A stretch of DNA of 64,000 nucleotides, from positions 434,001 to 498,000 of the forward strand of contig NZ_CP051515.1 of NCBI RefSeq assembly GCF_012689525.1. The letters run 5' to 3'. This DNA is from Paraburkholderia aromaticivorans (lineage in GTDB: Bacteria > Pseudomonadota > Gammaproteobacteria > Burkholderiales > Burkholderiaceae). Under the pieces are notes generated by a model, which was not told the origin of the DNA, searched no databases, and saw only the letters and a program-made list of their open reading frames with translations. A program made the position numbers and the translations under genes. Of the stretch, positions 29,703 through 44,540 are shown one piece after another (positions within the stretch are counted from its first letter, which is position 1; every line of letters begins with the position of its first letter).

Positions 29703-30290
29703 TCAGTCAAACACGGCAGGCTGTTTGAATGGAACGGCGAACTCAGCGTCCGAAGACGTAGCGATGAAGCTTGCCAACCTAGCCCGTAGCTCTGCCGGCG
29801 GAAGCCACGGATAAAGCAAGGACCCTTGCAGCGCGTTCAACTTCTCCGCGCGCGGGTCTGGCACGGCGTCCATGCGTTCGATATGAATGTGTAGCTGGAC
29901 GATCCGATCCTCAGCGTTGCCGCTCTCGTCTCCGAAGCGCCACCGATACATCCCTTTTCCGATCCGCAACGACTCGGTCTCCTTCTGCCGCATGACGACA
30001 AGCCACGGCATCGAGCAGTTCTGACTTTCATCCACCAGCGGTTCCGCGCAGACATAGTAGGTCCGGCATCGGTCGAAGCGTTCGCCGAAGTCGGCCACCA
30101 GCGTTTTGGCGATCGCGGCGGCACCGAGCACGCGCCGGGGAAAATCGATATCGTCGGTTGCAATCGAAAAGGTCAATTCCGCATCGGACGAGAAGCACTC
30201 GGATATCACTTCCGGCTGATTCAAATCCTTGGCACGAAGGTAACATTCAAGCAGTGACCGAACGGACGAAGACGAGAGGGAAGTATTCAT
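29703..30290 (-). CDS. NTF2/SnoaL-like protein
   Basis: A 195 aa protein whose first 150 residues look like a cone-shaped NTF2/SnoaL fold: an N-terminal helix (LLECYLRAKDLNQPEVISECF), a D-A-E-L-x-F strand, a helix with GAAAIAKTLVADF, then alternating strands. Such proteins act as small hydratases, isomerases or ligand binders. No catalytic residues can be assigned. It is divergent from the MarR gene, with a palindrome between them, so MarR control is likely. Confidence 0.65.
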   Translation of the reverse strand: MNTSLSSSSVRSLLECYLRAKDLNQPEVISECFSSDAELTFSIATDDIDFPRRVLGAAAIAKTLVADFGERFDRCRTYYVCAEPLVDESQNCSMPWLVVMRQKETESLRIGKGMYRWRFGDESGNAEDRIVQLHIHIERMDAVPDPRAEKLNALQGSLLYPWLPPAELRARLASFIATSSDAEFAVPFKQPAVFD

Positions 30291-30360
30291 GGATCTGCCT
30301 CGGATCGAAGTGAAGGGAGCCGCGAGCGCCGAGCCGAGCGGAGCGCTCGAACCTTTGAAG

Positions 30361-30381
30361 TATAATTACCTTCCAAAGGTA
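30361..30381. promoter_or_regulatory. Palindrome between NTF2-like and MarR genes
   Basis: TACCTT (30367-30372), a 3-base centre and AAGGTA (30376-30381) form an inverted repeat directly after a TATAAT box at 30361-30366. Size and position fit a MarR-family operator that overlaps the transcription start of the divergent pair. Confidence 0.6.
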
Positions 30382-30413
30382 AAAGTAGGCGCGGCACTCA
30401 GAGTGGAGAGGTT

Positions 30414-30956
30414 ATGGCTAAGAGTCAAGAAGAGGTTGTTCTGACGGTAACAAACCCAGCCTGTCTGGTCGACGGCTCGGACGCGGAGTTTCGGCATCTG
30501 GTGAACGGGTTGCTGCCGTTCGCGGCGCGCTTACTGTCGGTTCGGGATGGGTTCGGCACGTTGATCGGCCTCACGGGAATTCAGTATTCGTTGCTTATCG
30601 CGATCGCCCAGCTCTCGCACGACGATGTCGTCACGGTCAACCAGTTGGCGGACCACCTGCATTTGAGCGGTGCGTTCATTACCATCGAAACCGGCAAGCT
30701 CAAAAAACTGGGCTTGATCGACAAACGGTCCCATCCCGAAGACAAACGGAAGATGCGGCTGACCGTTACCACGGCGGGTTCCAGGTTGCTGAAAGAGCTG
30801 GCCGCCAAGCAGCAGCATATCAACGACGTGCTGTTCGAAGGCGTGACCAAAACCGAGTTCAAGGTACTCTGTTCGGTGGTGGATCGACTGGTCGCCAACG
30901 GCGATCGCGCCACGCTCGACCTTTCGCACCTGATCGCGCGGCAGGAAAAACGCTAG
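30414..30956 (+). CDS. MarR-family transcriptional regulator
   Basis: A 180 aa winged-helix regulator. Helices TVNQLADHLHLSGAFITIETGKL form the DNA-reading part, followed by the wing KRSHPEDKRKMRLTVTTAG, the signature of the family. Helical ends provide the dimer interface. It has a longer N-terminus than many MarR proteins. The ATG follows GGAGAGG. It probably represses itself and the divergent NTF2-like gene through the palindrome at 30367-30381 and responds to a small aromatic or other ligand. Confidence 0.9.
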   Translation: MAKSQEEVVLTVTNPACLVDGSDAEFRHLVNGLLPFAARLLSVRDGFGTLIGLTGIQYSLLIAIAQLSHDDVVTVNQLADHLHLSGAFITIETGKLKKLGLIDKRSHPEDKRKMRLTVTTAGSRLLKELAAKQQHINDVLFEGVTKTEFKVLCSVVDRLVANGDRATLDLSHLIARQEKR

Positions 30957-31018: not shown

Positions 31019-32242
31019 TCAATGCGCGGCCCATTGAATCGTGCTCAGATCGATTCCTTCGAGGTGCATGTCCCAAAGCGGACTCAGCGCACGCAGTTTG
31101 GCCACGGTGGTCTGCACCTGCAGAATCACCTGATCGACTTCTTCCACCGTGGTAAACCGTCCCAGCGTGAAGCGGATCGAGCTGTGCGCCAGCTCGTCGT
31201 TGCGGCCGAGCGCTCGCAAGACATAGGACGGCTCCAGCGAAGCCGACGTGCAGGCTGATCCCGATGAGACCGCGACCCCCTTGATGCCCATGATCAAGGA
31301 TTCGCCTTCCACGAAATTGAAGCTGACATTCAGGTTGTGCGCAATGCGGTGTGTCATGTCACCGTTGACGTAGACCTCTTTCATCTCTGTCAAGCCTGCC
31401 AGCAGCCGATTCCGCAAGTCCCCGACCCGGCGGCTCTCGGACACCCTCTCTTCCTTTGCAATTCGAAACGCTTCACCCATGCCGACGATCTGATGGGTGG
31501 GCAGCGTTCCCGAGCGCATTCCCCGCTCATGGCCGCCGCCATGCATCTGCGCTTCGATCCGGATGCGCGGTTTGCGGCGCACATACAGGGCACCCACGCC
31601 TTTCGGGCCGTACACCTTATGAGCCGTCACGGTCAGAAGGTCCACATTCAGCGCATTGACGTCAATCACAATCTTGCCCGCCGCCTGCACCGCGTCGCAA
31701 TGAAACACGATGCCTTTGGCGCGGCACATCGCACCGATCTCCGCAATGGGTTGCACGACGCCCGTTTCGTTGTTAACCATCATGACCGAGACGAGCACCG
31801 TGTCGGGCCGCATCGCATTCTCTAGCACGCCCAGATCCAGCAGGCCGTCCTGCTGGACGTCCAGGTAGGTCACTTCGAAACCCTGTCGTTCCAACTCGCG
31901 GCACGTGTCCAGTACCGCTTTATGTTCGGTTTTCACCGTGACGATGTGGCGGCCCTTTTCCTTATAGAAATTGGCAGCGCCCTTGATCGCGAGATTGTTG
32001 CCTTCGGTCGCGCCGGAGGTCCAGACGATTTCGCGCGCGTCCGCTCCCAGAAGCTCGGCAACCTGTGTGCGAGCGGTTTCCACCGCGTCGTCTGCCTCCC
32101 AGCCGTAACTGTGGCTGCGGGAGGCGGGGTTGCCGAAGCTCTCGTTCAGGAACGGAAGCATGGCTGCGACGACCCTCGGATCAACCGGCGTCGTTGCGCT
32201 GTAGTCCATATAAATCGGACGGGATGACTGCTTGGTTTGCAT
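31019..32242 (-). CDS. iscS: IscS-type cysteine desulfurase (solitary copy)
   Basis: A 407 aa PLP enzyme that takes sulfur from L-cysteine as a persulfide for Fe-S clusters and tRNA thiolation. The N-terminus [15 protein letters not shown] is typical, PLP Lys209 lies in [17 protein letters not shown], and the persulfide-carrying Cys331 lies in [17 protein letters not shown]. The length and Cys-loop match housekeeping IscS (group I), but none of iscR, iscU, iscA, hscBA or fdx is adjacent. The true start at 32242 follows an AT-rich promoter region; the frame stays open much further upstream without family resemblance. It is divergent from the flavin reductase gene. Confidence 0.9.
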
Positions 32243-32404: not shown

Positions 32405-32451
32405 CTTAGCTTTATTGAATAGCATGTAATAAAAGCTAAGTAACAAAGCTA
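32405..32451. promoter_or_regulatory. Inverted repeats between iscS and flavin reductase genes
   Basis: CTTAGCTTTATT at 32405-32416 and AATAAAAGCTAAG at 32428-32440 form a 12-base interrupted palindrome in an AT-rich block, and another AAAGCTAA lies at 32444-32451. The position between divergent genes suggests an operator for a regulator not encoded next to it. Confidence 0.55.
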
Positions 32452-32518
32452 ATAAACAACGCTTTGTGTGATGAATTCTAGCATCGCCTTGTCGGCGGTG
32501 CACCGGAAGGAGGGCGAG

Positions 32519-33049
32519 ATGAGAGAAAGCACTACGACGTCTACGGACAATGCGGACACGCAACGGCGGTTTCGCACGGCGTTGTCGATGTTCGCGACAG
32601 GGGTGGCTGTAATCACGGCGCCTAGAGACAACGCGCCGCCCATCGGTATCACCGTGGCGTCGTTCAACTCCGTTTCGCTCGACCCGCCCTTGATTCTGTT
32701 TTCCGTCGACCGGCGAAACCTGAGCTTGCCCGACCTGAGCGCGGTCGGCACCTATGCGGTGAACGTGCTCGAGGAAGCCCAGCAGGATCTGTCGAATCGA
32801 TTCGCCAAGGCGAACAGCGACAAATGGGGAGGCATGCCCGGCGTTTCGGAAAAGCGCGCCGACGCGGTTCTTCTGCCCGACTCGCTGGCCACTTTCGAAT
32901 GCGAGCCGTATGCGCAGTACGACGGTGGAGACCACGTCATCTTCGTCGGTCGCGTCAAGAAATATCAAACCCGGTCGGAAGGCCGACCGCTCGTCTTCTT
33001 CGGCGGCCGATACCACACGCTCAACGGTGCTCACCAGCCTTCCGCTTGA
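32519..33049 (+). CDS. Flavin reductase (HpaC-like) of a two-component monooxygenase
   Basis: A 176 aa flavin reductase-like protein. [31 protein letters not shown] and the C-terminal [11 protein letters not shown] are characteristic of HpaC-type NAD(P)H:flavin oxidoreductases. It would supply reduced FAD to the HpaB-like oxygenase encoded 32 bases downstream. The ATG at 32519 is preceded by AAGGAGG, the best ribosome-binding site in the region, and is preferred over an ATG 51 bases upstream. It is the first gene of the catabolic operon running to about 41.9 kb. Confidence 0.9.
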
Positions 33050-33081
33050 GCGCATAGCTGCCCCAATTTTTGGAGAACATC

Positions 33082-34560
33082 ATGATCAAGAACGGCACTC
33101 AACATATCGCGTCGCTGCGCGATGGACGGCAGGTCTATATCAACGGTCAAGCCGTCGGCGATGTGACGGCGCATCCCGCGTTTCGCAATTCCATTCGCAG
33201 CTACGCGAATCTGTACGACTTCCAGGCTCGCCCCGAGAACGTCGAAAAGATGACCTTCGCGTCGCCTGACACCGGGCGTCGCATCAGCAAGATCTGGCAA
33301 CTGCCGACCTCCTATGACGAACTGGTCGAGCGGCGCTCCGCGCTCGAAGCATGGACGGAACTCCACTACGGCTTCATGGGCCGTTCGCCAGATCACGTCG
33401 CTTCGTGCATCTCGGGCATGTATATGGGCATCGATGTGTTCGAGCAGTATGATCCGGCGCGCGCCGGCGCCTTGCGCGATTACTACAAATATGCACGCGA
33501 CAACGACCTCTTTCTCACCTATGTGATCGTCAATCCTCAGGCCAATCAGGCGAAGGCGGCGCACGAGCAGGAAGACAAGTACTTGGCGGTCGGTATCGTC
33601 GATCAGGACGCGGAAGGTATCACCGTGCGCGGCGCGAAGATGCTCGCTACCAGCGGCATCATGGCAAACGAGGTTTTCTGCAGTTGCATCCAGCCGCTAC
33701 GCCCGGGCGACGAGATGTATGCGTTGTCGTTCGCCATACCCATGAACGCCAAGGGTATGAAAGTGATGTCGCGCAAATCGTACGAAGAGAATTCGCCTTC
33801 GGTTTTCGACAACCCTCTGTCGAGCCGCTACGACGAAAACGACGCAGTGCTGTACTTCGACGACGTCAAGGTGCCGTGGGAGCGCATCTTCGTGGCCGGC
33901 GACGTGGCAATGTGCGCGAAGCAATTCCACGCAACACCTGCGCACAGCTATCAGAACTACCAATGCCAGGTACGCCTGATGGTCAAGCTGCGCTTCCTCG
34001 TCGGTGTGGCGCTGAAGATCACGGAAATCAACGGGACCAACAGCTTCCCGCAAGTCCGCGAAACGTTGGGGCAACTCGCCTCTGAAGCGTCGATGGTGGA
34101 AGCGTGGGTCTACGGCATGGAGGCGAAGGGCCGCGTCGAGAACGGCTACTTCGTGCCGGACCGCAACATGCTTTACGGCTCGCAGGTGGTGACGCAGCAA
34201 CTGTATTCGAAGGTGCTCAACACGCTGCGCGAACTCGCGGGCGGCGGAATGATCATGCTGCCGTCGAGCATTCGCGACTTCGAGAATCCGGATCTCCTGC
34301 GCATCATCGAAAAGACCCAGAAATCACCTGTCTGCAGCCCCGAGGAACGCGTCAAGTTCTTCAAGCTCGCGTGGGACGCTGTCGGCTCCGAGTTCGCGTC
34401 GCGCCACAACCAATACGAATTGTTCTATGCGGGCGCGTCGTTCGTCACGAAGGGCCACGCATTCCGCACCTACGACTGGCCGCGCGCGACGAGCCTCGTC
34501 GACGAACTGTTGTCGAGCTACTCGCTCGGCGCTGAACTCGCGACATTGCAGGCCGCCTGA
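33082..34560 (+). CDS. FADH2-dependent monooxygenase, HpaB/4-hydroxyphenylacetate 3-hydroxylase family
   Basis: A 492 aa group-D flavin monooxygenase with the acyl-CoA dehydrogenase-like fold. Features of HpaB are evident: an N-terminal RDGRQVYINGQAVGDVTAHPAFRN, then a central ATSGIMANEVFC and VPWERIFVAGD, then the C-terminal GGGMIMLPSS. It would hydroxylate an aromatic or heteroaromatic ring using FADH2 from its reductase partner. Family members act on 4-hydroxyphenylacetate, chlorophenols and other phenolics. The neighbours (amidase, cupin, DUF2848) do not fit the classical homoprotocatechuate pathway, so a different, possibly nitrogen-containing, substrate is likely. Confidence 0.88.
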   Translation: MIKNGTQHIASLRDGRQVYINGQAVGDVTAHPAFRNSIRSYANLYDFQARPENVEKMTFASPDTGRRISKIWQLPTSYDELVERRSALEAWTELHYGFMGRSPDHVASCISGMYMGIDVFEQYDPARAGALRDYYKYARDNDLFLTYVIVNPQANQAKAAHEQEDKYLAVGIVDQDAEGITVRGAKMLATSGIMANEVFCSCIQPLRPGDEMYALSFAIPMNAKGMKVMSRKSYEENSPSVFDNPLSSRYDENDAVLYFDDVKVPWERIFVAGDVAMCAKQFHATPAHSYQNYQCQVRLMVKLRFLVGVALKITEINGTNSFPQVRETLGQLASEASMVEAWVYGMEAKGRVENGYFVPDRNMLYGSQVVTQQLYSKVLNTLRELAGGGMIMLPSSIRDFENPDLLRIIEKTQKSPVCSPEERVKFFKLAWDAVGSEFASRHNQYELFYAGASFVTKGHAFRTYDWPRATSLVDELLSSYSLGAELATLQAA

Positions 34561-34600
34561 TTTCGCATTGCACCGATTCCAACTCACACAGGAGAGCAGC

Positions 34601-34987
34601 ATGGCAATCAACAAACTTCATGACGAGTTTCACACGCTGGAAATGCAGCGGGGCTGGCAATTGCCGGAAGGCTACGATCCCGCTTCCGGCGCGCAGGAAC
34701 TGATCCTTTCCGGCTCGCTGGATACGGAGAACAGGAAAGGCAGCCGCACGCGTTTGCTGCGCTTGCCTGCCGGACTCTTTACGAAGAGGCCGTTCGTGCA
34801 CGACTACTGGGAAGAGGTGTTTCTGGTGGAGGGCGACCTGACGGTCGGCAACGACGAAGTCGGTCAAGGCGGCACGCCGTTCAATGGCTACACCTATGCG
34901 GTGCGGCCGCCCGGCGCCTACCACGGTCCGTTCAAGTCGGAAAAGGGCTGCGTGCTGCTCGAGATTCACTACTTCGATCCGGCCTGA
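34601..34987 (+). CDS. Small cupin-domain protein
   Basis: A 128 aa single-domain cupin. The cupin core is seen as FVHDYWEEVFLVEGDLTVGN, with His, Glu and the G-x-Gly turn, and a second half ending PPGAYHGPFKSEKGCVLLEIHYF, where the His is a metal ligand. Such proteins act as dioxygenases, isomerases or metal-dependent ring-cleaving enzymes. The ATG follows ACAGGAGAG. It lies 40 bases after the monooxygenase and 2 bases before the amidase, so it is likely to act on the hydroxylated product. Confidence 0.85.
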   Translation: MAINKLHDEFHTLEMQRGWQLPEGYDPASGAQELILSGSLDTENRKGSRTRLLRLPAGLFTKRPFVHDYWEEVFLVEGDLTVGNDEVGQGGTPFNGYTYAVRPPGAYHGPFKSEKGCVLLEIHYFDPA

Positions 34988-34989
34988 TC

Positions 34990-36333
34990 ATGTTGCCCGC
35001 CATCGACGCCCTGCGTACTCAACTCGCCAATCGCCATCTCGACGCACAGGCGCTGCTCGCCTCATGTGTCGGGAACATCGAAGCCGATGCGGGTGAGGGC
35101 CGAAGAGTCTTCCCGCACGGCACCAGCCCCGCGGCGGCCACGCAGGCGATGGCGAGCGATGCGCTGCGTCGATACGGTGTCGCGGGCCCGCTCGCCGGAA
35201 TCCCGATTTCGGTCAAGGACCTCTTCGACGTGCAAGGCGAAATCACCCGGGCTGGGGCGCGCATTCTGCCCGAGCAGGCAGCCGCGCGCGATGCCGTGGC
35301 GATTGGCCGGTTGCGTGCGGCCGGCGCCGTATTCGTGGGCCGAACCAACATGACGGAGTTCGCGTACTCGGGTCTCGGCATCAATCCGCACTACGGCACG
35401 CCGGCGAATCCGTTCGATCGCGAGACGGCGCGCATTCCTGGCGGGTCATCCTCCGGCGCGGCGGTGTCGGTGGCGGACGGCATGGCGGCAGCCGCGATCG
35501 GCTCGGACACGGGCGGTTCGTGCCGGATTCCCGCGGCCTTGTGCGGCGTAACCGGTTTCAAGCCCACCGCGTCGCGTATTTCACTGGACGGCGTGGTGCC
35601 CTTGTCGTGCAGTTACGACTCGGTCGGATCCATGGCGCCGAGCGTCGCGTGTTGTGCCTTGATCGATTCGGTCATGGCCGGCGAAACAGACGCGTCAACG
35701 TCGCCTTCTTCGGTACGCGGCTTGCGCCTCGCCGTGCCGACGAAACCGGTGCTCGACGACATGGACGTGCACGTGGCCCACGCGTTCGAGATCACGCTCT
35801 CCAGACTCGCGGCAGCCGGCGCGATGCTGCGAGAAGTGGAATTCGACAGCTGGAACGCACTCGCCGAGTTGACGCAGCACGGCGGACTGGTAGCTGCCGA
35901 AGCGTGGGCGTGGCACGTCGACATGATCTGCAACCAGGCGAATCAGTATGACCCGCGGGTTCTGTCCCGCATCCGTTTCGGCAGCCAGCAAAGCACAGCC
36001 GAATACATCCGCACCCAAGCTCGCCGCTCGCTGCTGTGCAGGCAGGCCGATATCGAATTGCAGCCGTTCGATGCGGTGGTATGTCCGACCGTACCCATTG
36101 TCGCGCCGCGCATCGCGGATCTTGCCGACGAGCGTGTCTATACGTCGACGAATCGGCTGCTACTGCGCAATCCGTCGATCGCCAACCTGCTCGATCTGTG
36201 CGCGTTGTCCATTCCTTGTCACGAGACGGGTCGCGCGCCCGTCGGTGTGATGTTGATGGGACGACCGATGAGCGACCGGCGTCTGCTTGCAATCGGCGCC
36301 GGTGTCGAAGCGATTCTGCGTCATACCGGCTGA
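34990..36333 (+). CDS. Amidase-signature family hydrolase
   Basis: A 447 aa amidase-signature enzyme. The catalytic Lys76 lies in ISVKDLFDV, the Ser-rich loop GGSSSGAAV carries the cis-Ser (residues 153-155), and nucleophile Ser177 lies in GSDTGGSCRIPAALCG. All three are intact. It would hydrolyse an amide bond of the imported compound or of its ring-opened product, releasing ammonia or an amine. It starts 2 bases after the cupin stop. GatA is ruled out by length, a diverged C-terminal part and the operon context. Confidence 0.9.
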   Translation: MLPAIDALRTQLANRHLDAQALLASCVGNIEADAGEGRRVFPHGTSPAAATQAMASDALRRYGVAGPLAGIPISVKDLFDVQGEITRAGARILPEQAAARDAVAIGRLRAAGAVFVGRTNMTEFAYSGLGINPHYGTPANPFDRETARIPGGSSSGAAVSVADGMAAAAIGSDTGGSCRIPAALCGVTGFKPTASRISLDGVVPLSCSYDSVGSMAPSVACCALIDSVMAGETDASTSPSSVRGLRLAVPTKPVLDDMDVHVAHAFEITLSRLAAAGAMLREVEFDSWNALAELTQHGGLVAAEAWAWHVDMICNQANQYDPRVLSRIRFGSQQSTAEYIRTQARRSLLCRQADIELQPFDAVVCPTVPIVAPRIADLADERVYTSTNRLLLRNPSIANLLDLCALSIPCHETGRAPVGVMLMGRPMSDRRLLAIGAGVEAILRHTG

Positions 36334-36392
36334 CATCGCGCGTTGGTTAGCCGTCCGGCACCACGCTCGCTATCCCTATCAAGGAGGAGTCC

Positions 36393-37628
36393 ATGTTCAA
36401 ACGTTCCGCGCTTACCGCCGTGCCAGTCGCGGCCATGCTGTGCGCCGCTCTATCCCATGCCGCCGATCCGGTCATGACCAATGGCGGTGTGGTGAAAATC
36501 GGTGTGCTCACCGATATGTCTTCCATCTTCTCCGACATCGGCGGAAAGGGTTCCGTGGTCGCTGCGCAGATGGCGGCGGAGGATTTCGGTGGCAAGGTTA
36601 ATGGCGTACCCATCAAAGTGATCAGCGCCGATCATCAGAACAAGACCGATGTGGCCGCCACCGTCGCGCGAGACTGGTTCGATAACCAGCACGTGGACAT
36701 GGTCGAGGACTTGTTGCCGTCCTCCGTCGCGCTGGCGGTGTCGAACGTGGCGAAGGAGAAGCATCGGATCGCCATTGCGAGCGGCGCCGGGACCACACGT
36801 CTTAGCAATGAAGACTGCTCGCCGTACACGATTCAATACTCGTACGACACGTATGCATTCACCACGAGCCTCGTGAAGTCGATGGCGCGCAGCGGCGACA
36901 ACACCTGGTTCTTTTTGACCGTCGACTATGCGCTCGGGGCGTCGCTGGAAAAGGACGCGACCGCCGCATTGACGGCAGCCGGCGGCAAGGTAGTGGGCAA
37001 GGCGAAGCATCCGATCAATTCGTCGGATCTCTCGTCCTATCTGTTGCAGGCTCAGGCGTCGAAAGCAAAGGTGATTGGCCTCGCCAACGCGGGCAGCGAT
37101 ACCGTGAATGCGATCAAGACGGCACGCGAATTCGGCGTGATCGGGCAAGGCAAGCAAAAAATCGCGGGTTTGCAGTTATTTATCAGTGACATCAATAGCC
37201 TGGGACTGCAGGCGGCGCAGGGAATGATGCTGACCACGCCTTTCTATTGGGACCGCGATGACGCAAGTCGCGCGTGGTCGCAACGCTTCTTCGCGAGAAC
37301 CGGGCGCATGCCGACGCTGGTCCAGGCGGGCGTCTATTCGTCGACGCTGCACTACCTGAAAGCCATCAAGGCGAGCGGAACCGATGCGGCCGATACGGTT
37401 ATCGCGCAGATGAAGAAAACCCCTGTCGACGATTTCTTCGCGAAGAACGGCACGATTCGCGCCGATGGCCTGATGGTCCACGACATGTATCTGGCCGAGG
37501 TCAAGAGCCCGCAACAGTCCAAAAAGCCGTGGGACTACTACACGATCAAGCAGGTCATTCCGGCGCAGGAAGCGTTCGCGCCGCTCAGTGCGAGCCGCTG
37601 TCCGCTCGTCACCGCGAAATCTAACTGA
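36393..37628 (+). CDS. LIV-type ABC importer binding protein
   Basis: A 411 aa periplasmic receptor with a signal peptide ending ALSHAADP. Mature features: VVKIGVLTDMSSIFSDIGGKGS, a DLLPSSVALAVSNVA loop and TWFFLTVDYALG, all of the LivK/amide-urea receptor class. ATG 36393 has AGGAGGAG upstream. It delivers the pathway substrate to the LIV-type permease and ATPases encoded at 38420-41895. Its divergence from the LivK-like protein at 25145 suggests a different ligand, perhaps an aromatic acid or amide. Confidence 0.9.
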   Translation: MFKRSALTAVPVAAMLCAALSHAADPVMTNGGVVKIGVLTDMSSIFSDIGGKGSVVAAQMAAEDFGGKVNGVPIKVISADHQNKTDVAATVARDWFDNQHVDMVEDLLPSSVALAVSNVAKEKHRIAIASGAGTTRLSNEDCSPYTIQYSYDTYAFTTSLVKSMARSGDNTWFFLTVDYALGASLEKDATAALTAAGGKVVGKAKHPINSSDLSSYLLQAQASKAKVIGLANAGSDTVNAIKTAREFGVIGQGKQKIAGLQLFISDINSLGLQAAQGMMLTTPFYWDRDDASRAWSQRFFARTGRMPTLVQAGVYSSTLHYLKAIKASGTDAADTVIAQMKKTPVDDFFAKNGTIRADGLMVHDMYLAEVKSPQQSKKPWDYYTIKQVIPAQEAFAPLSASRCPLVTAKSN

Positions 37629-37684
37629 ATCGAATCGCGTGTGGCCGGGGCGTCGAACGGGCACACGCTTTTAAGGAGTATGTG

Positions 37685-38374
37685 ATGAAAGACATTTCGT
37701 TTGAGGTCGAAGACAGTCACGGTTCGTTCGGGCGAATCATCTCGATCGACACGTTGGTCATCGCCGGCTGGACCGGCCGCGACACCGTCGCCATGGAAAA
37801 GCACATTCGCGAGCTGGAAGAGTTGGGCGTCAAGCGGCCGGCTTATACGCCCGTCTTTTACCGTGTCGCCGCCGACCGGCTCGAACCGACACCGAAGATC
37901 CAGGCGACCGGCACGCAGAGCAGTGGCGAAGTGGAATTCGTCTTGTTGAAAGACGCGGGCGAAACGTTCGTCGGTATCGCGTCCGACCACACCGATCGCG
38001 AAGTGGAAACCTACGGCATCACCGTATCGAAACAGATGTGCGGCAAGCCGTGTTCACGCAAGCTCTGGCGCCTGAGCGAGGTCGCCGGTCACTGGGACGA
38101 ACTCGTGTTGCGTTCCTACGCGACGATCGACGGCGAGCGCGTGCTCTATCAGCAGGGCAAGGTGACAGCCATGCGCGCGCCGCAGGATCTGCTCGACGAG
38201 TTTGCCCGCCGGGACGGCCGCTTCGTGGATCGCACAGCCATGCTCTGCGGCACGCTCGCCGCGCTCGGCGGCATCAGGCCGGCCGAGCGTTTCGACATCG
38301 AACTCGAAGATCCGATCCTGCGGCGCTCGTTGACGCATAGCTATGCGATCGAAACGCTCCCCGTGGTCGGCTGA
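37685..38374 (+). CDS. DUF2848-family protein
   Basis: A 229 aa protein resembling the DUF2848 family, whose members are often encoded with catabolic amidases and transporters. It contains IDTLVIAGWTGRDTVAMEKH, then a VFYRV segment, GEVEFVLL and VGIASDHTDREVE near the middle, with SKQMCGKPCS following. The DHTDRE motif suggests metal or acid-base chemistry like that in fumarylacetoacetate hydrolase-type enzymes. That similarity is only pattern-based. ATG 37685 has AAGGAG with a 6-base spacer; a GTG 3 bases earlier has too little spacing. Confidence 0.78.
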   Translation: MKDISFEVEDSHGSFGRIISIDTLVIAGWTGRDTVAMEKHIRELEELGVKRPAYTPVFYRVAADRLEPTPKIQATGTQSSGEVEFVLLKDAGETFVGIASDHTDREVETYGITVSKQMCGKPCSRKLWRLSEVAGHWDELVLRSYATIDGERVLYQQGKVTAMRAPQDLLDEFARRDGRFVDRTAMLCGTLAALGGIRPAERFDIELEDPILRRSLTHSYAIETLPVVG

Positions 38375-38419
38375 AACCCTCTTTTTAACGCATGCGTCCA
38401 ATGGACGAGGAGAGCGGGT

Positions 38420-39170
38420 ATGGCGCACACCGACCTGATTCTTGAAACCAGCAGCCTCACCAAGTCGTTCAACGGCTTTACGGCTGTCAACGCCGTCGAT
38501 TTGCGTGTCCGGCGCGGCACGATCCACGCACTGATCGGGCCGAACGGCGCGGGCAAGACGACCTGCTTCAACCTGCTGACCAAGTTTCTGACGCCCACAT
38601 CAGGGCAGATTTTCTTCGACGGCAAGGAGATCACGCGCGCGGCGCCGGCCTCGATCGCACGACGTGGCGTGATTCGATCGTTTCAGATCTCCGCGGTATT
38701 CCCGCATCTGAGCCCGGTTGAGAACGTGTGTATTGGTTTGCAGCGCGCGCTTGGCGTGTCGTTCCGTTTCTGGATGAGTAGCGCGGTGCTCGGTCGACTC
38801 AGGAAGCGCGCGCTGGAACTGCTCGATGAAGTGGGCCTGGCCGCATTTGCCGACATCAAAACCGCCGAGCTTTCATACGGCCACAAGCGTGCGCTCGAAA
38901 TTGCCACGACGCTCGCGATGGATCCGGTGTTGATGTTGCTCGACGAACCGACCCAAGGCATGGGTCATGAAGACGTGGATCGGGTCACGGCGCTCATCAA
39001 GAAGGTCTCGGCCGGCCGAACAATTTTGATGGTCGAACACAACATGAAAATCATTTCCAGCATCTCGGACACCATCACGGTGCTGCAACGCGGAGAGGTT
39101 CTCGCGGAAGGCGCCTACGAAGTCGTGGCCGCCGACCCTCGAGTGCGGGAAGCCTACATGGGGACCGAAA

Positions 39171-39190
<20 letters not shown>
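38420..39190 (+). CDS. LIV-type ABC importer ATPase (LivG-like)
   Basis: A 256 aa ATPase. Walker A GPNGAGKTTCFNLL, signature LSYGHKRALEIA, Walker B VLMLLDEPTQGMG and switch His in MVEHNMK are all in place and typical of LivG. The Q-loop region reads IRSFQISAVFPHLS. It is the first ATPase gene of the importer. Its last 20 bases overlap the start of the LivF-like gene. Confidence 0.93.
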
Positions 39191-39941
<751 letters not shown>

Positions 39942-39955
39942 ACGGGACGATCATC

Positions 39956-40840
39956 GTGGAACTCTTTGGTATTCCGCTTGCGGCGTTCTCCAGCCAACTG
40001 GTCCTCGGTCTCATGAACGGCTGCTTCTATGCTGTCTTGAGCCTGGGCTTGTCTGTCATCTTCGGGCTGCTGAACGTCATCAACTTCATGCACGGCGCGT
40101 TCTTCATGCTAGGTGCGCTATTGGCATGGATGGGCACGAACTATCTCGGTCTCGGCTATTGGCCGATGCTGATCGCCGCACCGTTCGTGGCCGGCGTGTT
40201 AGGGGCGCTCGTCGAGCGGACCATGCTGCGCCGGATCTACAAGCTCGATCATCTTTACGGCTTACTGCTCACGTTGGGCCTGACGTTGATTATCGAGGGA
40301 CTATGCCGGTCCCTTTATGGTGCTTCGGGCATGTCCTATCCGGCGCCCGAGGGGCTGATGCAAGGCATGCAGTTAGGTTTCATGGTGCTGCCGGCTTATC
40401 GGGGATGGGTGGTGGTGGCGTCGTTGCTCGTGTGTGCCGGCGTCTGGTGGACGATCGAGCGTACGAATCTTGGCGCGCTGCTCCGCGCGGCGACCGAGAA
40501 CCCCAAGCTAGTGGCGGCATTCGGCGTCAACGTACCGGCCATGGTCACGTTGACTTACAGCAGCGGGGTGGCACTTGCCGCGCTGGCCGGCGTGCTCGCC
40601 GCACCCGTCATGCAAGTGTCGCCGCTGATGGGCCAGAGCGTGATCATCACCGTGTTTGCGATCGTCGTGATTGGCGGCATGGGATCGATCGCGGGCTCGG
40701 TCATTACCAGTCTGTGCCTTGGCCTGATCGAAGGGCTGACCAAGATGTTCTATCCGGAAGGGTCCGCGACGGTCGTGTTCGTGATCATGGCGCTCGTGCT
40801 GCTCGTGCGTCCAAGTGGTCTGTTTGGCAATTCGAAGTGA
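39956..40840 (+). CDS. LIV-type ABC importer permease (LivH-like)
   Basis: A 294 aa permease with about eight membrane helices. GLMNGCFYAVLSLGLSVIFG, LLNVINFMHGAFFMLGA and VIGGMGSIAGSV are LivH hallmarks. The frame runs open far upstream through the ATPase gene, but family similarity begins at a GTG at 39956. An alternative TTG at 39938 overlaps the ATPase stop. The choice of start is uncertain, but the protein is complete either way. Confidence 0.85.
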   Translation: MELFGIPLAAFSSQLVLGLMNGCFYAVLSLGLSVIFGLLNVINFMHGAFFMLGALLAWMGTNYLGLGYWPMLIAAPFVAGVLGALVERTMLRRIYKLDHLYGLLLTLGLTLIIEGLCRSLYGASGMSYPAPEGLMQGMQLGFMVLPAYRGWVVVASLLVCAGVWWTIERTNLGALLRAATENPKLVAAFGVNVPAMVTLTYSSGVALAALAGVLAAPVMQVSPLMGQSVIITVFAIVVIGGMGSIAGSVITSLCLGLIEGLTKMFYPEGSATVVFVIMALVLLVRPSGLFGNSK

Positions 40841-40848
40841 GGCACATC

Positions 40849-41895
40849 ATGCGAAATTGGATTGTAGGGGTTGTCGTGTTGGGCTGTCTGGCTGTCGCTC
40901 CGTGGATGGGTGCCTATCCGGTGTTCTTGATGAAGCTGATGTGTTTCGCCCTGTTCGCGTGCTCGCTGGATTTGCTGCTCGGCTATGTCGGCTTGCTGTC
41001 GTTCGGGCACGCGGCGTTCTTCGGCGGGGCCGCTTTCATCGCGGGCAGCGCCATGCGGGACCATGGCTGCCCTCCGGAAGTGGCGTTGCTTCTCGGTACG
41101 GGTGTGGGCGCGGCACTCGGGCTGATATTCGGGCTCTTCGCCATTCGCCGCAAGGGAATCTATTTTGCAATGGTGACGCTGGCCTTTGCGCAGATGCTGT
41201 TCTTTTTCTGCGTTCAGGCACCGTTCACGGGCGGTGAAGACGGTTTGCAAGGCGTACCGCGCGGGCGTCTGTTCGGCGTGCTTCCGCTCGATAACGATCT
41301 AACGCTGTATTTCGTGATCCTGTCGATTACGACGGTCGTCTTTCTGTTCCTTGGCCGGGTCATTCATTCTCCGTTTGGAAGAATCCTCACGGCGCTGCGA
41401 GAGAACGAAGCGCGGACGATTTCCCTCGGTTACGACGTGGACCGCTTCAAGCTTCTCGCGTTCGTACTATCGGCCGCAATGGCGGGGCTTGCCGGTGCGA
41501 TGAAAACGTTGGTGCTGGGTTTTGCGACGCTCTCGGATGTGCATTGGACGCTATCCGGTACGGTCATTCTGATGACGTTGATCGGCGGCCTTGGAACGCG
41601 GCTGGGCCCGGTGGTGGGCGCGGTGATCGTCGTCGTGCTGGAATCCAGGTTGGCTGCGTTTGGCGGCTGGCTGGCCGACGTGACGCAGATCGCGTGGTTT
41701 CAAGGGTTGGGCGAGTCGGTCAGTTTGTTGACCGGCGTGATGTTCGTAGCCTGTGTTTTGCTGTTCAGACGCGGCATCGTCGGGGAATGCGCGCAATGGA
41801 TGGCACGGCGCGGGCGTAGGCGAGCCCGCGGCGCTGAACGTCCGGCGCAGCACGACGCTGTGCGGACCGGGCTGGCCGAAGGGCAGGGCGGGTAA
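40849..41895 (+). CDS. LIV-type ABC importer permease (LivM-like)
   Basis: A 348 aa permease with about nine to ten helices. DLLLGYVGLLSFGHAAFFGG, then IYFAMVTLAFAQM and LIGGLGTRLGPVVGA, are LivM features. The ATG at 40849 is 8 bases after the LivH-like stop. An Arg-rich tail of about 35 residues extends past the last helix. It is last in the operon; with LivH-like, LivG-like and LivF-like proteins and the binding protein at 36393 it completes the importer. The ATPase genes precede the permease genes, the reverse of the classical livHMGF order. Confidence 0.9.
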   Translation: MRNWIVGVVVLGCLAVAPWMGAYPVFLMKLMCFALFACSLDLLLGYVGLLSFGHAAFFGGAAFIAGSAMRDHGCPPEVALLLGTGVGAALGLIFGLFAIRRKGIYFAMVTLAFAQMLFFFCVQAPFTGGEDGLQGVPRGRLFGVLPLDNDLTLYFVILSITTVVFLFLGRVIHSPFGRILTALRENEARTISLGYDVDRFKLLAFVLSAAMAGLAGAMKTLVLGFATLSDVHWTLSGTVILMTLIGGLGTRLGPVVGAVIVVVLESRLAAFGGWLADVTQIAWFQGLGESVSLLTGVMFVACVLLFRRGIVGECAQWMARRGRRRARGAERPAQHDAVRTGLAEGQGG

Positions 41896-42357: not shown

Positions 42358-43698
42358 TCATCGACCACCACCGTCCGGCTCGATCGGAAAACTGACCGTC
42401 GCAACGATGCCGGACTGCCCATCGCCGCGATTTCGCAGCGTCACCGTCCCGCCATACCGCGTGACAATCGCTTTCACAATCGACAGTCCGAGCCCACTGC
42501 CTTCAATGTCCGTATTGGCGCGAAAGAACCGATCGAACACGCGAGGCAGCAGGGTTTCGTCGATACCGGAGCCGGTGTCCTTCACTTCGACAGAGACCAT
42601 GCCGGCCTGCACGCGGGTCGACAAATCGATTGTGCCGCCGTCGGGCGTATAGCGAACCGCATTGCTGACGAGGTTCTTGATCACCGTGCCGACGTCGAGT
42701 TCGATTGCGCGCACATTGGCGCTGACCATTTCGTCCGCGCCGATGTCGATGCCACGCTGCATGGCAATCGGCAGCACATCGGAAATGGCGTTGACGACGG
42801 CGGCCGCGACATCGACGCTGACCATTGCCCGTGTCAGCGATTGACCGACGGGCGGCGCGTCCGCGCGCGCGAGCCGCAACAACTGCGAAATCAGATTGCT
42901 GCTTCGTGTGATACCGCCTTGAAGCGCGCGAAACCGTTCCTGATTGCTGGGCATGATGTCGCGTTGCAGATTATCGGCCTGCAATTGCAGAGCCGTGAGC
43001 GGCGTTCGCAACTCGTGCGCGGCATCGGAAATGAATTTGCGTTCACTCTCGATGGAGCGGGCAAGTCGCTCGATCATCAGATTGATCGAGCGGATGAACG
43101 GCAGCAATTCGGTGGGTACGCCTGTGAGCGGCAGCGCTTGCAGATGGTTCACATCGATAACACGGGCCTCGTTGCCAAGCCGGTTCAGTTCCCGCAACGA
43201 ACGACTCACGACGAAGATAACGGCGGCCCAGACGAGCGGAATCAGCACGACGATCGGCCATAGGGTCTTCGTCGCGGCGGTCTCCTCGATCTCATGACGC
43301 ACGGACAGGCGCTGCGCGACCTGCATGGTCTGAGCGCCGTCGCGAGCGGTGTAGATCCGCCACCGTTCGCCATTGACGACCGGCGACGTGAAGCCCGCGG
43401 CCGCATCGCGCGGCAGGAGCAGCGACGGCTCGGTGGAGCGCACCGGCTGTGTCTCGCCTTCCTTCCAGATGACGATGAAAATATCGCGGGCGTCTTGCGA
43501 CCCGCGCGCCGGAACCGTCGGGATGCCGTCGCCGAAGCCGCCCCGTAAACGCGATGCGACCTGTTCCATGCGCAGGTCGAGCACCGCGCTCATGCCGGCC
43601 ACGCAGAACTGGTAGGAGCTGACGCCTTGCAGAATAGCGAACAGGCTCACCACGGCGCCGATTGCGATAACGAGTTGGTTGCGGAGCGATTTGAGCAT
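42358..43698 (-). CDS. Orphan sensor histidine kinase, QseC/PmrB type
   Basis: A 446 aa membrane sensor kinase. Two membrane segments (about 10-30 and 145-165) frame a periplasmic sensor domain of about 115 residues. His228 in SDAAHELRTPLTALQLQ is the phosphorylated His. The N box (NLVSNAVRYTPDGG), G1 (VKDTGSGI), F (FDRFFR) and G2 (GSGLGLSI) boxes complete the ATPase domain. No response regulator gene is adjacent; the nearest, kdpE, is 17 kb away. A GTG at 43713 is an alternative start. It lies 107 bp downstream of a TetR gene on the same strand. Confidence 0.85.
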   Translation of the reverse strand: MLKSLRNQLVIAIGAVVSLFAILQGVSSYQFCVAGMSAVLDLRMEQVASRLRGGFGDGIPTVPARGSQDARDIFIVIWKEGETQPVRSTEPSLLLPRDAAAGFTSPVVNGERWRIYTARDGAQTMQVAQRLSVRHEIEETAATKTLWPIVVLIPLVWAAVIFVVSRSLRELNRLGNEARVIDVNHLQALPLTGVPTELLPFIRSINLMIERLARSIESERKFISDAAHELRTPLTALQLQADNLQRDIMPSNQERFRALQGGITRSSNLISQLLRLARADAPPVGQSLTRAMVSVDVAAAVVNAISDVLPIAMQRGIDIGADEMVSANVRAIELDVGTVIKNLVSNAVRYTPDGGTIDLSTRVQAGMVSVEVKDTGSGIDETLLPRVFDRFFRANTDIEGSGLGLSIVKAIVTRYGGTVTLRNRGDGQSGIVATVSFPIEPDGGGR

Positions 43699-43805
43699 GT
43701 AGGTGAACTTCACGAAGAGCGAGTGGCCAGGACGCGAGAGGAAGCACGCCTTCCCGTCGTTGACTTCAGGATGCGCGTTGTTTCATCGCGACGTGAGCCT
43801 CGCGT

Positions 43806-44540
43806 TCATTTTCTGCCTTTGCCTGCGGGATCGGCGGGAACGATCTGGACGTGCTCGATCGCGGCTTCCACCAGATCCTCGGCGCTTCGTATGCCGTCGG
43901 CGGATGCGGCCAGCGCATTCAGGCGTCCGTCGATCAGAAGCAAAGCAAGCCCGTGAACGTACGCCCAGGCTGCGGTCATGGCAATGGCCTGAGCCGCAGT
44001 GGTTCGGCCGAACGAGGACTTATCCTCCTCCGTGCGTTCGGTGGGCGCGCTGACTACCCCGGCCAGGGCGCGCGCCGACGCTTGCCGCGCCTGCACGAGG
44101 GCAGGGCGCGCGGCGTCGAGCATTTCGTTGCGCGACATGAGGTGCAGCAAATCGGGATTGGCCACCGCAAACCTGACGTAGCCACGGGCGGTAGCTTTGC
44201 GCCGCGCCTGGCCCGCTTCGATACCGTCCGCCTGCTCCGCCATGGTAGCGGCGAGCCGCCGGTGTCCGCTGGCGGCAAGTTCGCTCAACACACCGGCTGT
44301 GTCGCCGAAATGATGCTGGGGCGCCGTATGCGATACGCCCGCTTCACGTGCAATAGCGCGCAACGTCAGGCCGCGAATGCCGTCGCGCCGTAGCACGACC
44401 TCCGCCGCTTCGAGCAGCGCATGGGGCAGCGCGCCGTGATGATACGGTTTGTCACGCGACGAGTGATCAACTGGAGTTGGGGCTGGGGCTGGCGCTTTCG
44501 GCGGCGCGGACGCTTTGCGGCGTGACGTTGCTTCTTTCAT
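43806..44540 (-). CDS. TetR-family transcriptional regulator
   Basis: A 244 aa TetR protein. After a Lys/Ala/Pro-rich N-terminal tail comes the HTH domain: LLEAAEVVLRRDGIRGLTLR, AIAREAGVSHTAPQHHFGD. The C-terminal ligand domain contains WAYVHGLALLLIDG, the WHG-type signature of one TetR subclass. Its target is unknown. It may regulate the sensor kinase gene downstream, itself, or the small membrane genes upstream. Confidence 0.88.
   Translation of the reverse strand: MKEATSRRKASAPPKAPAPAPTPVDHSSRDKPYHHGALPHALLEAAEVVLRRDGIRGLTLRAIAREAGVSHTAPQHHFGDTAGVLSELAASGHRRLAATMAEQADGIEAGQARRKATARGYVRFAVANPDLLHLMSRNEMLDAARPALVQARQASARALAGVVSAPTERTEEDKSSFGRTTAAQAIAMTAAWAYVHGLALLLIDGRLNALAASADGIRSAEDLVEAAIEHVQIVPADPAGKGRK

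Follow-up and report, generated by a model that had tools for sequence, protein, structure and literature searches.

In the quinaldine scheme, hydroxylation is followed by 2,4-dioxygenolytic ring opening, loss of carbon monoxide and amide hydrolysis, and in the anthranilate route hydroxylation to 3-hydroxyanthranilate is followed by the action of 3-hydroxyanthranilate 3,4-dioxygenase. The lumichrome cluster of Nocardioides simplex, which serves the breakdown of an N-heterocycle, contains several amidases and a cupin, LumY, that acts after ring opening, according to the accessible part of the report (PMC12746152). For the 4-hydroxyphenylacetate (4-HPA) hydroxylase HpaB of Thermus thermophilus, the accessible text of a review assigns catalytic roles to Arg100, Tyr104 and His142 and also treats the Ser197-Thr198 pair (PMC10537072). 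Here we analyse a cluster of ten genes in a 64,000-nucleotide stretch (G000:C2:434001-498000, hereafter the window) of the 10.8 Mb genome of Paraburkholderia aromaticivorans, which encodes a flavin reductase, an HpaB-fold oxygenase, a small cupin, an amidase, a DUF2848 protein and a LIV-type importer. To judge from these protein families, the cluster probably imports and dismantles a nitrogen-containing ring compound. Its parts are of known kinds; the combination and two of the subfamilies look new. An earlier note on this DNA had suggested a possibly undescribed catabolic pathway, and in the open-licence PubMed Central (PMC) literature, to which all our literature searches refer, we found neither a pathway that shares its gene order nor a function for DUF2848. 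Leads on pyrrole-2-carboxylate, hydroxypyridine, HpaB-amidase and cupin-MarR combinations were also followed, and none of these papers, in their accessible text, describes the set (including PMC12746152 and PMC6165268).

The ten-gene cluster and its enzymes

The layout proposed previously, ten genes on one strand with short gaps, was confirmed in both coordinates and Pfam families: the run extends from 32519 to 41895 on the + strand, each of the ten proteins is identified by Pfam, and the intergenic gaps are, in order, 32, 40, 2, 59, 56, 45, -20, 14 and 8 bases. The closest named relatives of the proteins are from Paraburkholderia. The grouping goes beyond chance, since homologues of the reductase, HpaB, cupin, amidase and DUF2848 genes were found in 0/19 control stretches of 20 kb, drawn from five Burkholderiales genomes only; LivG-like genes occurred in 2/19.

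With its HpaB_N and HpaB domains and an encoded flavin reductase, the oxygenase matches the domain definition of group D two-component flavin monooxygenases. It misses both curated HpaB cut-offs (TIGR02309, 354.9 against 480.2 bits; TIGR02310, 298.1 against 885.2 bits). Alignment with the T. thermophilus enzyme shows that Arg100 is kept (Arg101), while Tyr104 corresponds to His105, His142 to Tyr147, and Ser197-Thr198 to Ile203-Gln204. Arg-His-Tyr together with Gln204 is present in 40/40 homologues of the cluster's own HpaB group, where position 203 is occupied by Ile 38 times and by Leu and Phe once each. The same triad occurs in distant relatives that adjoin a cupin gene (L076, L094, L095 and L096 at 36-40% identity, L123 at 41%), whereas Arg-Tyr-His is found in five relatives (L124-L128, 36-39% identity) whose stretches contain no such cupin homologue. 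A paralogue in the own genome (L093, 33% identity) has Arg-Phe-His, and two loci form exceptions, L086 and L098, with Arg-His-Tyr and no cupin found in the stretch examined. Because the cupin-linked relatives carry the exchange and the five cupin-less ones do not, it is, as far as alignments tell, the mark of an HpaB subfamily which largely tracks the cupin.

By these sequence features the cluster oxygenase is probably not a 4-hydroxyphenylacetate 3-hydroxylase. With Arg-His-Tyr in its site and without the Ser/Thr pair, it would hardly hold 4-HPA in the usual way, so that a different substrate is the natural inference, and the earlier view that this is not the classical hydroxyphenylacetate (HPA) route stands, with curated cut-offs missed and active-site residues changed. 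Homologues of the oxygenase carry the database labels HPA hydroxylase, HpaH (in a Cupriavidus) and 'Anthranilate 3-monooxygenase oxygenase component' (in some Cupriavidus), which are probably wrong for members of the Arg-His-Tyr subfamily; for this reason annotations of aromatic degradation could change wherever the His/Tyr exchange marks the subfamily. Since the same family includes a dehydratase/isomerase branch among its solved structures (1u8v, 6vjr), we speak of oxygenase activity as predicted. The flavin reductase reaches the curated cut-off of none of the 8 NCBIfam models listed for it and, in a test for the RutF type of the Rut pyrimidine pathway, reached 60.3 bits against 254.75.

The DUF2848 protein can confidently be assigned a fumarylacetoacetate-hydrolase (FAH) fold from its predicted structure (predicted local distance difference test, pLDDT, 93.2), for which both Foldseek and VIA gave FAH-type matches; those from Foldseek include fumarylpyruvate and maleylpyruvate hydrolases. 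Hydrolases of this fold cleave carbon-carbon bonds, and the superfamily also comprises Cg1458, FAHD1 and 2-keto-3-deoxyarabinonate dehydratase. Identity to FAH-type chains is only 9-18% (39 Foldseek rows, E <= 0.001), and a sequence search against solved chains gave no match at E <= 10. E82, E84 and D101 are invariant in 60/60 members and in 7/7 further members, and are candidates for the Glu-x-Glu and Asp metal ligands of the FAH type. Because of the modelled fold, a ring-opened 2-oxo acid is the more likely substrate of the protein, and a part in the opening of the ring the less likely one. The family is large, with at least 7,998 members matched (7,999 candidates scored), and no functional name appears on the DUF2848 proteins among the 120 matches listed. 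No paper treats DUF2848 by name in the literature searched, and the string PF11010 retrieved Plasmodium papers only, presumably through a look-alike gene identifier.

The cupin has 128 residues in a single domain, with H67, E71, E72 and H108 invariant in 50/50 aligned members and a predicted structure of pLDDT 93.7. In Foldseek, acetylacetone dioxygenase (3bal) is the first row, in an E-value tie with a TM1459 variant, and in VIA-align many metal cupins are level, so that the two methods give no single neighbour. As to a Dke1-like oxygenase, the protein has a cupin fold and conserved His/Glu residues, features that do not tell the reaction. Since some sets combine cupin and DUF2848 without any recognised oxygenase nearby, the cupin may be a lyase or isomerase rather than an oxygenase, a role comparable with that of LumY after ring opening in the accessible part of the lumichrome report (PMC12746152). 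Thus, of the ring opening assisted by cupin or DUF2848 that had been suggested for this cluster, an oxygenase role of the cupin was not borne out, and the fold of DUF2848 suits a later step. Distant cupin relatives in Rhodococcus, Acuticoccus, P. fungorum and Halotia have no annotated DUF2848 nearby, and the cupin family is therefore wider than this pathway. The distant cupin of Rhodococcus pyridinivorans (L130, 8941-9324) has genes for a P450, a PDR/VanB-type reductase and hydrolases as its neighbours.

Recurrence of the set in other genomes

We compared 80 DUF2848 loci from genome contigs, ranked by their similarity to the DUF2848 of the cluster and taken as the best 80 of 230, and 28 Burkholderiaceae loci chosen likewise; some are on short contigs and the counts are biased, less so in a sample of 120 Burkholderiales genomes. 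The codon-scored gene caller overlooks or divides a gene here and there, as with the L003 amidase and the L005 HpaB, and amidase and HpaB counts were taken from tblastn. A cupin homologue is present in 72/80 loci, within 5 kb in 65, and HpaB in 36/80, each of these with a cupin (36/36). A PnpA/HspB-like FAD monooxygenase occurs in 20/80 loci, none of them an HpaB locus by the gene maps. UbiD-family homologues, including weak relatives at 31-33% identity (L076, L032), and GntR genes are each found in 18/80 loci and in 0/19 control stretches. When plasmid records were searched with HpaB as anchor, the nine with HpaB at >=60% identity were the nine top-ranked DUF2848 records, with the genes a few kb apart. 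Among the 120 genomes, the cupin is present in 6, DUF2848 in 8 and HpaB (E <= 1e-100) in 5, and cupin and HpaB lie within 1.5 kb of each other in 5/6 cupin genomes. The set is patchy within the genus, as only 4/58 genomes carry the cupin.

Reductase, HpaB and cupin are joined to DUF2848 in Thioclava, Paracoccus versutus, 'Roseateles' XES5, Arthrobacter and 28/28 Burkholderiaceae loci, in differing orders. An Arthrobacter plasmid carries consecutive genes for an MFS transporter, a CN_hydrolase, DUF2848 (35%), HpaB (41%), cupin (39%) and flavin reductase (32%), and a Priestia megaterium plasmid combines GntR, MFS and DUF2848 with a 386-residue CN_hydrolase-cupin fusion protein, whose cupin domain falls short of the Pfam cut-off (21.3 bits against 27) yet aligns at the conserved residues. 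DUF2848 adjoins the cupin in Vibrio maritimus, and in Variovorax (L135) cupin, TRAP-like transporter genes, DUF2848 and amidase stand together with no recognised oxygenase; some 8 kb away from that cupin there is an acyl-CoA-dehydrogenase-like gene. DUF2848, cupin and C-N hydrolase are thus found again in company with different oxygenases or without a recognised one, and two recurring pairs, HpaB-cupin and DUF2848-amidase, are united in the window. The best reading of these gene neighbourhoods is that cupin, DUF2848 and a C-N hydrolase would form a movable lower module which is also joined to other upper enzymes. Through its fold, its conserved partner set and its natural fusion, DUF2848 becomes a testable enzyme. 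HpaB-cupin sets without DUF2848 adjoin a LIV importer in L095 (1-9912) and L096 (248-10005), the latter also with a glutamine-synthetase-like gene and with a gene of weak similarity to a Rieske oxygenase model (66 bits, where the cut-off is 600).

The amidase exceeds the cut-offs of both its models (PF01425, 286.4 bits against 27; NF005460, 595.2 against 447). At least three unrelated kinds of C-N hydrolase are found in the sets, namely amidase-signature, CN_hydrolase and isochorismatase-like enzymes (the last in L033 and L052), and this repeated replacement by unrelated kinds is what speaks most strongly for C-N cleavage as a genuine part of the pathway. The amidase of Paraburkholderia domus (L003) appears in two tblastn pieces (from 7308 and from 8333), with residues 1-347 only in the genome search, and may be frame-broken or misassembled. 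The LIV (HAAT) importer is complete, with a binding protein, two permeases and two ATPases. The nearest solved chains of the binding protein are 3i09 and 3n0w, and no paper on the ligand of 3i09 was found in the PMC literature. Import of branched-chain amino acids or urea was considered and rejected, with the binding protein scoring 24.4 against 477 and 29.2 against 492.75 bits.

Proposed pathway and competing explanations

We give a probability of about 0.5 to the reading that the cluster is one catabolic operon, probably MarR-controlled, whose substrate would be an aromatic or heteroaromatic acid that contains nitrogen and is hydroxylated. Uptake would be the task of the LIV-type importer, the flavin reductase would supply reduced flavin to the HpaB-type oxygenase, and this enzyme would hydroxylate the ring at a position like those in phenols or pyridones, as their families suggest. 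The cupin, as a metal enzyme, may then act on the hydroxylated or just opened product as a dioxygenase, lyase or isomerase; DUF2848, by its modelled fold, would be a metal-dependent FAH-type hydrolase or lyase for the ring-opened 2-oxo acid; and nitrogen would be freed by the amidase, whose place is taken in other lineages by a different C-N hydrolase, the order of steps being presumed. More tentatively, and short of even chances, cupin, DUF2848 and C-N hydrolase could represent an undescribed lower pathway for N-heterocycles in at least three bacterial phyla, with DUF2848 as the C-C-cutting step and interchangeable upper enzymes (Arg-His-Tyr HpaB, PnpA/HspB-like flavin monooxygenase, UbiD, molybdenum hydroxylases); the version in the window would use a new HpaB subfamily to hydroxylate a hydroxypyridine-, pyrimidine- or purine-like ring.

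Neighbours in related loci lean, circumstantially, to a nitrogen heterocycle as substrate. A second DUF2848 set of the own genome (L136, G000:C3:3546000-3565000) consists of DUF2848, MFS, GntR, amidase, a dsbB-like gene, xdhA, xdhB and xdhC, of which xdhA and xdhB score far over their cut-offs and xdhC is cut by the stretch end. Its order is repeated in P. domus, followed there by adenosine and guanine deaminase. In 4/4 Burkholderia stretches GntR, amidase, dsbB-like gene and xdhC are kept, and DUF2848 and MFS are absent; the next genes are near-equal in length, and adenosine and guanine deaminase were confirmed in the one tested. The DUF2848-amidase sets of Pantoea and two further genomes (G007, G098) have no adjoining xdh genes. 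In Rhizobium ACO-34A, the genes after an Arg-His-Tyr HpaB encode an amidase, an allantoinase of the PuuE type (317 bits, short of the cut-off of 424.6), a deaminase-like amidohydrolase and a flavin reductase. Among the 80 loci, a molybdenum hydroxylase occurs in 5, a count that may be low with one of three representatives left out, PreA-like genes in 4, hydantoinase-like (HyuA) genes in 2 and isochorismatases (BiuH/RutB-like) in 2. These neighbour matches to N-heterocycle enzymes are mostly below curated cut-offs, xanthine dehydrogenase excepted. The alternative flavin monooxygenase of other loci has as its nearest solved relative PnpA, which we take to be a phenol hydroxylase, and as second-best HspB, a hydroxypyridine monooxygenase.

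Several observations weigh against the operon reading. The purine-type neighbours belong to paralogous sets and not to this locus, with the dsbB-like gene standing between amidase and xdhA; the UbiD and PnpA-like partners fit plain phenolic acids equally well; and the C-N hydrolases and flavin monooxygenases match named functions only below curated cut-offs. Moreover, tblastn found no amidase within 10 kb in 16/28 Burkholderiaceae loci, including 5/5 of Pandoraea, and seven Burkholderia genomes contain at best a 52% amidase paralogue elsewhere. In the 120-genome sample the cupin is missing from 6/8 DUF2848 genomes, and three HpaB-cupin genomes (G010, G059, G103) lack DUF2848. Of the earlier scheme for a nitrogen-containing aromatic or heterocycle, ring hydroxylation with C-N hydrolysis remains the best fit, with circumstantial support for the heterocycle from neighbours mostly below cut-offs; the release of nitrogen by amide hydrolysis would hold as C-N hydrolysis, with no support for the amidase itself as an essential part.

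A ring without nitrogen, in which the HpaB subfamily would hydroxylate a phenolic acid and the amidase strip an amide side chain before or after opening, is unlikely but a serious contender. The solved relatives of HpaB are mostly phenol hydroxylases, as is presumably PnpA, and UbiD homologues and the fumarylpyruvate and maleylpyruvate hydrolases among the DUF2848 fold matches point the same way; the purine- and pyrimidine-type neighbours, the relationship to HspB and the absence of the Ser/Thr pair, by which the carboxylate of 4-HPA is held, speak against it. It is doubtful that two unrelated units merely lie side by side, with one compound handled by reductase-HpaB-cupin and a second by importer-DUF2848-amidase. 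HpaB-cupin without DUF2848 in the three genomes above, and DUF2848-amidase without HpaB or cupin in the stretches examined of Pantoea, G007, G098 and the own-genome contig C3, would fit such a division, whereas the rejoining of DUF2848 to reductase-HpaB-cupin from Thioclava to Arthrobacter and in all 28 Burkholderiaceae loci, themselves selected by DUF2848 similarity, argues against it.

Chances are slim for a quinaldine-like logic with a 2,4-dioxygenolytic, carbon monoxide-releasing cupin between hydroxylation and amide hydrolysis; it has in its favour the set of hydroxylase, possible dioxygenase and amidase and the first Foldseek place of 3bal, which is shared with the TM1459 variant. An anthranilate-type route, with HpaB acting on anthranilate or a relative and the cupin as 3-hydroxyanthranilate 3,4-dioxygenase, is very improbable: some Cupriavidus homologues bear the corresponding label, but Cupin_7 is the sole Pfam match of the cupin (E <= 0.001) and NCBIfam has no family for it, thus no 3-hydroxyanthranilate dioxygenase model matches, and the route has no place for DUF2848 and amidase. 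Least credible of all is a misread classical 4-HPA (hpa) operon, which the family names and the HpaH label of a Cupriavidus homologue might suggest; we rejected it on account of the missed HpaB cut-offs and the exchanged catalytic Tyr and His, and none of the other eight proteins exceeds the cut-off of an hpa enzyme model.

Probable upstream control and comparison with known systems

Coordinates of the cluster genes and of the conserved features upstream are collected in the table.

Table. Features of the window, with strand and basis of assignment
Feature	Position	Strand	Basis or remark
NTF2-like protein	29703..30290 (start 30290 or 30209, uncertain)	-	Conserved neighbour, 21/28 Burkholderiaceae loci
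MarR-family regulator	30414..30956	+	PF12802/PF01047; 28/28 Burkholderiaceae loci
IscS-like cysteine desulfurase, second copy	31019..32242	-	TIGR02006, 714.4 bits vs cut-off 643.2; 28/28 Burkholderiaceae loci
25-base conserved box AATAAAAGCTAAGTAACAAAGCTAA, candidate promoter box	32428..32452	+	91 bases before reductase ATG
Flavin reductase (HpaC-like)	32519..33049	+	PF01613, 129 bits
HpaB-fold oxygenase, distinct Arg-His-Tyr subfamily	33082..34560	+	PF11794/PF03241 (HpaB_N/HpaB)
Small single-domain cupin	34601..34987	+	PF12973 (Cupin_7), 28.0 bits vs cut-off 27
Amidase-signature amidase, PRK07056 subfamily	34990..36333	+	PF01425; NF005460
LIV-type periplasmic substrate-binding protein	36393..37628	+	PF13458 (Peripla_BP_6), 354.5 bits
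DUF2848 protein, FAH-superfamily fold	37685..38374	+	PF11010, 280.7 bits; predicted structure
LivG-type ABC ATPase	38420..39190	+	PF00005 (ABC_tran), PF12399
LivF-type ABC ATPase	39171..39941	+	PF00005 (ABC_tran)
LivH-type permease, GTG start	39956..40840	+	PF02653 (BPD_transp_2)
LivM-type permease	40849..41895	+	PF02653 (BPD_transp_2)

The MarR gene lies 1.6 kb upstream of the cluster, and MarR-like genes are also present in the HpaB-cupin loci L032, L044, L080, L083 and L095. The AATAAAAGCTAAGTAACAAAGCTAA box is found with at most 5 mismatches in 28/28 Burkholderiaceae loci and with 9 in L044, outside the family; the best approach in shuffled sequence (20 shuffles per locus) has 8 mismatches, and in this comparison the motif was picked after the sequences had been viewed and shared descent adds to its conservation. 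A scan for promoters and terminators gave no excess over shuffles. Conservation of the upstream MarR gene and of the box makes the MarR protein the probable regulator of the cluster and the box its probable site of control, and we infer that the one binds the other. The earlier statement that the cluster contains no regulator is literally true of its interior and misleading as to its surroundings.

An inverted repeat, CTTTG...CAAAG, at about 30350-30385 just 5' of the MarR gene is a possible self-control site. The IscS-like gene, a sulfur-transfer gene that stays with the cluster, encodes a protein 75% identical to another copy on C3. The NTF2-like protein had no match in a Pfam search, and the gene at the matching position in Caballeronia NK8 is annotated as nuclear transport factor 2 family. 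Downstream, two open reading frames that face the cluster, 42358-43713 (-) and 43806-44540 (-), resemble, by eye, genes for a sensor histidine kinase and for a regulator of the TetR type.

Overall, the locus can be set beside four described systems. In the accessible part of its report, the lumichrome cluster resembles it in its amidases, the post-opening cupin LumY and a putative FAH protein, LumV, whose role is unassigned; it differs in its early steps, which comprise a P450 and hydrolysis of the uracil ring, and no HpaB-cupin-DUF2848 set was seen there (PMC12746152). The xanthine/purine locus of Burkholderiaceae contains a paralogous DUF2848-MFS-GntR-amidase set, in the own genome as in P. 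domus, but the 19 kb examined in the own genome hold no HpaB, reductase, cupin or LIV homologue. With the FAH superfamily DUF2848 has the modelled fold in common, without a sequence match to any solved chain at E <= 10. With HpaBC the cluster shares both Pfam halves of HpaB, a partner flavin reductase and the catalytic Arg, and it departs from that system by scores below TIGR02309 and TIGR02310, by the exchange of Tyr and His and by Ile-Gln in place of Ser197-Thr198.

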